From positions 1 through 64,000 of the forward strand of contig JALCQM010000014.1 of assembly GCA_022651245.1 (NCBI GenBank): 64,000 nucleotides of DNA. The letters run 5' to 3'. This document shows, in pieces, positions 27,149 through 59,718 of this stretch. A model generated the notes under the pieces. That model was not told where the DNA came from. It saw nothing but the letters and a program-made list of their open reading frames with translations, and did no database searches. Both the position numbers and the translations under genes were made by a program. Position 1 is the first letter of the stretch; each line of letters starts with the position of its first letter. The stretch is from Lactobacillus sp. Lineage in GTDB: Bacteria; Bacillota; Bacilli; Lactobacillales; Lactobacillaceae.

Positions 27149-27206
27149 ACTTGGCAGGGGTGTTGGCCTGTGGTATGATGACGCTGTTATTAAAACTAAA
27201 GAGCCC

Positions 27207-27290
27207 GTCACAAAGGGGAGCCAGTGGCTGAGAGTGGGGAAACCCAGACCCTTCGAACCTGTTCGTTAATACGAGCGTAGGGATTGTGAA
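27207..27290 (+). promoter_or_regulatory. TPP riboswitch (THI element)
   Basis: CACAAAGGGGAGCCAGTGGCTGAGAGTGGGGAAACCCAGACCCTTCGAACCTGTTCGTTAATACGAGCGTAGGGATTGTG. Confidence 0.95.
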
Positions 27291-27342
27291 CGTCGTTTTG
27301 CGACCTTCTTTGTGTCCGGGTAGACCAGAGGAGGTCTTTTTG

Positions 27343-57954: not shown

Positions 57955-58242
57955 CGAACGTCGCTTGACGCTGTTGAGCGCATTTTACGGCGCGGGGATG
58001 ATTGGACTCGTCGTGGTGGAATGGTCTACCTGCAATCATGGTTTAGACAGCGGCTTTTGACGTCGCCTTTTTGGAGCTGTTCGCTGTCGTGAGTTAACGA
58101 TTTCGTGAAGCATAGAGGCCTAGACATGAGCGGCCTTTAGGTGAATTAGCTGAAGACAGTTTTTGATATTGGTCTACTAATGTAAAAAGTTTGTAAAAGT
58201 TTATGTAAGGGGTTCCATTTACGGCAAAAGCTGGTATACTGA

Positions 58243-58614
58243 CCTTAGCTTATACAGCTGGGTATGGTGGTGGCCACTCCATATGCTTTCCCAGTTGTAA
58301 CAGTGGGGGTACCAGTCGATGATCCTTGTCGGCCTCCACACACGCTAAGGGATAAATCCTGAAAATGGCCTAGAACTGATTGGGCACAGGCGAGACATCT
58401 GGTAGTACGACCCTCATGGCGGGACCAACCCGCGTGAGGCCGCTGTTATCCAAGCCCTGAGCGTCAACTCAGGCACCGTAACCAAAGCTTTTCGCGGTTC
58501 GGCAACCGCGCCTCTTCATTTGGGGAATCGCCTGGGACACGTTTGGGGAGACCTGACGTGTCTTTGTTGTACGCAAAAAGACGCCACCAGAAAAATTCTG
58601 GTGACGTTTTTTTT
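58243..58614 (+). ncRNA. Candidate structured non-coding RNA, class not recognised
   Basis: Extended -10 TGGTATACT at 58232-58240, at least eight helices read by eye, and terminator ACGCCACCAGAAaaaTTCTGGTGACGT+T8 at 58581-58614; no plausible ORF. Confidence 0.65.
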
Positions 58615-58618
58615 GCGC

Positions 58619-58834
58619 TCAATGATTGGCTTCAAAAACCGCGATATCCTGCCAGCCCGTGATTTGGTGGACGTTGGCGATGAAGGTGTTGGGCGCGGCG
58701 AGTGACAAGCAAGACCAGTGGTTGCCTTCAGTTTCAAGCCACTTGCCAAGTGTCGAAAGTTCTGGGTAATCGGTAAAGTGGTGTTCAGTGGCCACTCGGA
58801 TCTGCACATTATGACGACGGTGAATACGGATCAT
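58619..58834 (-). CDS. Hypothetical small protein (71 aa)
   Basis: MIRIHRRHNVQIRVATEHHFTDYPELSTLGKWLETEGNHW...; SD AAGGGAGAA upstream; shares the bidirectional terminator at 58581-58607. Confidence 0.6.
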   Translation of the reverse strand: MIRIHRRHNVQIRVATEHHFTDYPELSTLGKWLETEGNHWSCLSLAAPNTFIANVHQITGWQDIAVFEANH

Positions 58835-59055: not shown

Positions 59056-59718
59056 GTGACACGATTATACTTTGTTCGACATGGTAAAACAGAATGGAAC
59101 TTGCAAGGGCGCTACCAAGGCGCAAATGGGGATTCGCCGCTATTACCGCAGAGTTATGATCAGATCCACCAGTTGGCCCATTTCTTGAAGCCGGTCCACT
59201 TTGCCCATTGCTATGTCAGTCCACTGCCGCGTGCGCAAACGACCGCCAAGACGTTACTTGCCGACCTAGCACAGGCGATTCCGACAACAACCACCGTCGG
59301 AATGAGAGAGTTCAACCTAGGTAAAATGGAAGGCATGAAGTTCACCGAGGTGGCGAAGAAATATCCGCAGGAGCTGCATGATTTTCGAACGGCGCCTGGT
59401 GATTATGATCCTTCCAAAATTGCTGGCGAAAGCTTTCCGGAGTTGATCGCCCGAATGCAGCCTGTCGTGTTAGATGCGGTCCAGCAAGACCAAACCGGTC
59501 AGGCGAACCTCCTTTTCATCAGCCATGGTGCCGCGTTGGTGGCGCTGATTCAAAGTCTACTAGGCACGCCGATCAAAGACTTGCGCAAAGACGGGGGCTT
59601 GACCAATAGTAGTGTGACAATTCTAGAAACGCACGGGACGCAGCTGCCGTTCAAGTTGATCAAGTGGAATGATACCGAGTTTTTGACGAAGAAGCTCGAT
59701 CCGACAGACACGATTTAA
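59056..59718 (+). CDS. Histidine phosphatase (phosphoglycerate mutase-like) family protein
   Basis: LYFVRHGKTEWNLQGRYQG, FISHGAALVAL. Confidence 0.93.
   Translation: MTRLYFVRHGKTEWNLQGRYQGANGDSPLLPQSYDQIHQLAHFLKPVHFAHCYVSPLPRAQTTAKTLLADLAQAIPTTTTVGMREFNLGKMEGMKFTEVAKKYPQELHDFRTAPGDYDPSKIAGESFPELIARMQPVVLDAVQQDQTGQANLLFISHGAALVALIQSLLGTPIKDLRKDGGLTNSSVTILETHGTQLPFKLIKWNDTEFLTKKLDPTDTI

Follow-up and report, generated by a model that had tools for sequence, protein, structure and literature searches.

The DNA analysed here, referred to as the window, is a stretch of 64,000 nucleotides from a Lacticaseibacillus genome, and at 58243-58614 it holds a locus that a sequence-only reading had described as a stand-alone structured RNA without a credible ORF and with its own promoter and terminator. 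The locus raises the question of whether such an RNA gene exists, whether it belongs to a described class and what it might do. The sequences quoted in that reading (extended -10, helices, terminator) are all present where they had been placed, and the lack of a credible ORF in 58243-58614 is borne out; copies of the locus differ by single-base indels.

The promoter and RNA locus

The promoter and RNA at about 58181-58575 belong to a family of structured-RNA genes that is present in many copies; the features of the window copy are summarized in Table 1. Several near-identical stand-alone RNA genes with their own predicted promoters were found, and copy number, covariation and conserved promoter elements together argue for the proposed stand-alone structured RNA with its own promoter. 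A check of the sequence gave the extended -10 as TGGTATACT. Across the copies in the window's own genome (G000), the -10 and -35-like hexamers are constant in place and variable in letters. A generic sigma-70 scan of the window did not report the RNA's promoter because the -35 is weak. TGTAAA boxes (type A) lie upstream of most stand-alone own-genome copies, with an AT-rich type B instead in L030, L032 and L033. Direct repeats of the TGTAAA sort are bound by OmpR/PhoB-type regulators.

The predicted RNA is approximately 325-330 nt long. It had been judged not to be an obvious leader, and this holds: the downstream gene is in opposite orientation in 8 of the 12 own-genome copies (ORF calls), so the RNA is not a cis-regulatory leader. 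The 3' neighbour of the window RNA is a convergent small ORF of 71 aa (58619-58834, minus strand). The window locus, which precedes a mutase gene at 59056, is not syntenic in relatives.

Table 1. Features of the window locus, in window coordinates
Feature	Position	Strand	Description	Remarks
Direct repeats TGTAAA-TGTAAA-TGTAAG	58181-58209	+	Starts 58181, 58192, 58204; spacing 11 and 12; upstream of -35	Putative response-regulator-type operator (promoter type A)
Promoter (predicted)	58213-58240	+	-35-like TTCCAT 58213-58218, 16-nt spacer, extended -10 TGG-TATACT 58232-58240	Same position in own-genome copies
RNA body	58247-58575	+	Putative start 6-7 nt past -10	3' limit is end of region conserved among copies
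5' hairpin ACAGCTGGG/CCCAGTTGT with inner TATGG/CCATA	58254-58298	+	Helices 1-2 of A1	3 pairs with two-sided changes
Second hairpin GTGGGGG/CCTCCAC	58303-58339	+	Helix 3 of A1	2 pairs with two-sided changes
Two small hairpins	58349-58385	+	58349-58360 and 58368-58385; helices 4, 5 of A1	One two-sided-change pair each
Long-range helix around 3' half	58389-58533	+	58389-58392 with 58529-58533; helix 6 of A1	One-sided changes only
Hairpin CCTCA-GCGGG-accaa-CCCGC-TGAGG	58412-58439	+		By eye, type-1 copies
Hairpin CCTGAG/CTCAGG	58454-58474	+	Helix 9 of A1	3 pairs with two-sided changes
CGTAA motif	58477-58481	+		Also 5' of terminal hairpin in G007/G013 and G021/G022 RNAs
Hairpin CGCGGTT-cggc-AACCGCG	58493-58510	+		Conserved, mostly invariant
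Terminal hairpin GGGACACGT..ACGTGTCTT, then UUUGUUGUACGC tail	58534-58575	+	Helices 13-14 of A1	
Intrinsic terminator	58581-58614	+	Sequence and terminator scan	Outside conserved unit

Membership in a described RNA class can be assessed by several searches. An Rfam 15 scan of the window, at both gathering and lax thresholds, gave no match at the RNA, in agreement with the earlier reading, in which no known class had been recognised. The sole Rfam match in the window is a TPP riboswitch (RF00059, 64 bits) at 27204-27300, and ARAGORN found no tmRNA or tRNA in the window. Matches to RcsR1, SNORD112 and miRNA families were far below cut-off and were rejected. The size and fold of the RNA, taken alone, would suit a divergent 6S, RNase P, tmRNA, SRP or riboswitch-leader RNA, but such an identity is extremely improbable given approximately 20 copies per genome and no credible match even at the lax threshold in a scan that does recognise RNase P RNA and SRP RNA at other places in the loci examined. 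Judged by sequence comparison, this is a real, conserved, multicopy structured-RNA family without a matching described class.

Copies in the window genome and a related species

When the own genome and 60 relatives were searched at the DNA level, 11 copies turned up in the own genome, and the only other species with related copies was Lacticaseibacillus baoqingensis (G002). After further searches the own-genome set comprised partial copies and 12 full-length copies of type 1, which have 88-96% identity to the window copy; the L. baoqingensis copies have approximately 72% identity to the window RNA. A covariance model matched 18 times in the own genome and 12 times in L. baoqingensis, and a more divergent RNA, type 2, is present in both. 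Contigs C11, C17, C26, C33, C53 and C68 of the own-genome draft break off inside an RNA copy or beside one, which makes its copy number a lower bound.

The covariance model gave no credible window-type RNA in 28 other genomes of the genus; weak matches in G023, G027 and G008 look like chance. In a set of 301 family genomes that does not include G002, the window RNA had matches in the own genome only. The RNA had also been called housekeeping-like, a description that does not fit an RNA that is multicopy and, in the genomes covered, restricted to certain species of Lacticaseibacillus.

Fold and covariation

Folding energy was compared with shuffles for the 372-nt stretch (z -4.24), for its reverse strand (z -2.37) and for 58247-58570, which excludes the terminator (z -1.88). 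Part of the first value thus comes from the terminator. Since the last value is so small, energy is weak evidence, and the real evidence for the fold is covariation. The homologue and covariation check that had been suggested turned out positively, with approximately 20 own-genome copies and compensatory base-pair changes in 20 aligned copies. In this alignment of 20 window-type copies (A1), 98.0% of cells are paired, and 60 cells have two-sided changes vs 19.1 in shuffles (0/500), which are inflated by relatedness but are a better control than slid positions, as these favour a structure derived from the same alignment.

The helices that had been read by eye fared unequally. Support from the 20 aligned copies extends to ACAGCTGGG/CCCAGTTGT, TATGG/CCATA, GTGGGGG/CCTCCAC, CCTGAG/CTCAGG and GACACG/CGTGTC, the last being mostly invariant, and CCTC-GCGGG/CCCGC-GAGG and CGCGG/CCGCG can be followed by eye in type-1 copies, the latter again mostly invariant. 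Most L. baoqingensis copies have GCAGG/CCTGC at the 58412-58439 hairpin, with pairing preserved. The GGATAA/TTATCC helix is not supported by the aligned copies. The outer CCTTAGC/GCTAAGG helix is absent from L. baoqingensis copies, and its 5' arm lies 3-9 nt past the -10 and would thus be mostly upstream of the putative transcript start; with this helix unsupported, the closed three-way junction that it was thought to complete is likewise unsupported, and it is not conserved.

The 3' end

The strong terminator noted at 58581-58614 is real and was also found by scan, but it lies outside the conserved unit, which stops near 58575. Similarity among copies runs through the hairpin GACACG..CGTGTC and the brief tail after it; past that point own-genome copies are mostly unrelated. 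Strict intrinsic terminators occur within 140 nt downstream of 6/12 own-genome, 10/29 G007/G013 and 0/9 L. baoqingensis copies (baseline: 5% for positions picked at random, 0.6% for tails after shuffling), and they differ from copy to copy. Because the terminators vary and the sequence past the tail is mostly unrelated, the one at 58581-58614 is local and not part of the unit; it is probably bidirectional and common to the convergent gene.

A second dispersed repeat was observed in these regions, namely hairpins of approximately 120 nt (GAGCGTGA...) at L034-L042 in L. baoqingensis and at L127 and L030 in the own genome. These are often in tandem, directly 3' of L. baoqingensis RNAs and of type-2 copies of both species.

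Partner proteins A and B

In several copies the RNA is divergent to a gene pair encoding protein A (approximately 280 aa) and protein B (230-250 aa). A is found in this arrangement on own-genome contigs C1, C2, C53 and C11 and on L. baoqingensis contigs C18 and C7, and all close A copies (4/4 in the own genome, 2/2 in L. baoqingensis) lie beside an RNA. More distant A homologues were found by a genus search in G007, G013, G021, G022 and others. An RNA-like unit is present divergently upstream of A at approximately 20 of the 22 A loci inspected, in seven species, and A is usually followed by B. With a broader A profile searched against 401 family genomes, A was found only in Lacticaseibacillus. 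Two A homologues, L157 (G000:C72) and L154 (G002:C1), are in apparent operons with no RNA upstream; at C72 there are two in tandem.

A and B are paralogous (hhalign 98.3%). No credible match was obtained for A in Pfam, NCBIfam, PHROGs, PADLOC or PDB, or for B in Pfam and PDB, the two searched, and no transposase or reverse transcriptase family was matched by A (Pfam, NCBIfam, PHROGs, PADLOC) or B (Pfam). The best PDB profile match of B, at a weak E of 0.45, is phage ORF34P2, a single-stranded-DNA-binding protein with an SSB-like OB fold. Single-sequence AlphaFold models are too poor to be of use (pLDDT 55 for A, 35 for B); a PDB fold search with the A model gave no match, which for such a model carries no information, and the low-confidence model of B has N-terminal strands. 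The ORF34P2 resemblance and these strands would fit nucleic-acid binding as a weak hint and prove nothing.

Other RNA types beside A

In G007 and G013, the gene for A is preceded by a divergent conserved unit of approximately 400 nt. Most copies have a TTGAC..TATCAT promoter and a terminal CCACGAAA/TTTCGTGG hairpin with a TTTGTTGTGC-like tail, and the place of the long-range helix of the window RNA is taken by a long-range GGC/GCC helix (helix 7 of alignment A4). A4 contains 72 two-sided cells vs 24.9 in shuffles (0/500). The model built for this RNA gave 35 matches in G007 and 38 in G013, the weakest few being marginal, and no match in the rest of the genus. A third type occurs in G021 and G022, with four near-full copies each plus fragments and a 3' end of CACGTAA..GGGGCCTttcgGGGCCTC-TTTGTCGTG. 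L. baoqingensis C6 and G004 each have a further, single type upstream of A. No credible Rfam match was found for the G007/G013, G021/G022, C6 or G004 types.

The RNA types have in common their architecture, the terminal hairpin and a UUUG[K][Y]GYG-like tail, and most have a CGUAA motif, which is absent near the tail in L149 and L239. In a scan with a pattern chosen after seeing the sequences, a terminal hairpin with UUUG tail was found 466-588 nt from the start of A in most A loci. The scan missed L123, L126, L124 and L155 (short sequence or variant tail), where the RNA was found by model or direct reading, and it found no hairpin-tail at the operonic A homologues of own C72 and L. baoqingensis C1. 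Profile HMM and model cross-searches detected no sequence similarity between window-type and G007/G013-type RNAs. As the cross-searches fail, homology of the types is argued from position, architecture and 3' end rather than from sequence, and on these features the dissimilar RNAs are presumably homologous.

Evolution of the copies

Flank comparison revealed six positions at which a copy lies between the same genes in the own genome and in L. baoqingensis, yet a tree of copies groups them by species and type, not by position, which indicates concerted evolution or repeated replacement. Genes flanking the RNA copies are mixed, protein A excepted. In G007/G013, similarity between copies usually ends 66-84 nt upstream and 7-10 nt downstream, and the upstream modules vary, with at least four promoter modules each common to a subset (L161-L190). 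These copies often begin right after the terminator of the upstream gene. The single orthologous site that was compared, glnP-hflX, is not a clean empty site in other species, being occupied there by short spacers or by small genes without relation to the RNA. Searches of phage, plasmid and viral collections gave no match.

Such dispersal would be expected of a selfish or mobile element with an autonomous form, RNA plus A/B, and a non-autonomous form that has spread as RNA-only copies. The presence of as many as 38 dispersed copies in one genome, their near-identity within it, the excess of RNA-only over A/B-bearing copies and the bounded similarity in G007/G013 all favour this reading. It is nonetheless unlikely, since copies with one and the same RNA body can have different promoter modules, six loci occupy orthologous positions in two species, A (four libraries) and B (Pfam) match no transposase or reverse transcriptase, and the phage, plasmid and viral collections yielded nothing. 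The dispersed, intergenic location, often just past another gene's terminator, could also point to a DNA-level element, i.e. a chromosome-organisation or recombination site without RNA function. This is very improbable in view of the conserved promoter elements, the covariation and the constant divergent orientation to gene A.

Proposed mechanism

The window RNA family is probably part of an undescribed RNA-protein system. Each copy would use its own promoter, with operators that differ between copies, to give the same folded RNA of approximately 325 nt, which may work in trans as a ribonucleoprotein with the paralogous A and B. As a protein-binding or 3'-end element, the strongest candidate is the conserved terminal hairpin together with the single-stranded UUUG[K][Y]GYG tail that follows it; we infer that the RNA is transcribed, that A and B bind it and that the tail is the binding site. 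That one product has so many promoters suggests that its supply responds to more than one signal, so that several regulators may feed one pool. The main reason for proposing a ribonucleoprotein is that a fast-changing RNA is linked to the same protein family in approximately seven species. Counting against the partnership, most RNA copies have no adjacent A/B, and the A homologues at own C72 and L. baoqingensis C1 have no RNA. Weighing these points from sequence data, we give trans action with A/B on a pool fed by many promoters an even chance of being correct.

Several promoter or operator types on otherwise alike copies, the many copies and their location away from any one target gene would also suit a regulatory sponge or a family of base-pairing sRNAs (LhrC-like), with A/B unrelated or merely titrated. 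We consider this quite improbable, because the length and elaborate conserved fold exceed those of a simple base-pairing sRNA and because the A/B linkage recurs over several RNA types. The ribonucleoprotein reading is preferred to a sponge. If it is right, part of Lacticaseibacillus may hold an undescribed bacterial ribonucleoprotein class, made up of a fast-evolving RNA in 12-38 differently controlled copies and a paralogous nucleic-acid-binding pair; for this wider claim the balance of belief and doubt is about equal.

Large structured bacterial RNAs are usually single-copy, and here there are up to 38 copies. With its exchangeable promoters, within-species homogenisation and uncharacterised protein pair, this would represent an RNA-based system of a new kind; should it be only a multicopy regulatory RNA, its newness would be correspondingly less. 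The claim of newness derives from the fact that neither the RNA nor the proteins matched a family, and no description of the RNA/A/B system was found among the open-access papers searched. The RNA can be tracked past sequence recognition via its neighbouring protein, and Lacticaseibacillus includes culturable food bacteria.

Comparison with known systems

ROOL, GOLLD and OLE are described as large, highly structured bacterial RNAs, some of them in Lactobacillales (PMC12286853). The present RNAs differ from these in having no Rfam match to them, many copies per genome and linkage to A/B. MITE-like elements and IS200/605 derivatives resemble the family in their dispersed near-identical copies with fairly well-defined ends, but here promoter modules are exchangeable, no transposase was found and some positions are orthologous. 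LhrC of Listeria, a small RNA with few copies, provides another likeness in that several copies of one RNA have their own promoters. It has been linked with stress on the cell envelope and with a two-component system (PMC4132741), and the window copy similarly has two-component-type direct repeats upstream. Unlike LhrC, the RNAs found here are 300-420 nt long with an elaborate fold, occur in 12-38 copies, are recurrently linked to A/B and, in G007/G013, are preceded by at least four promoter modules.
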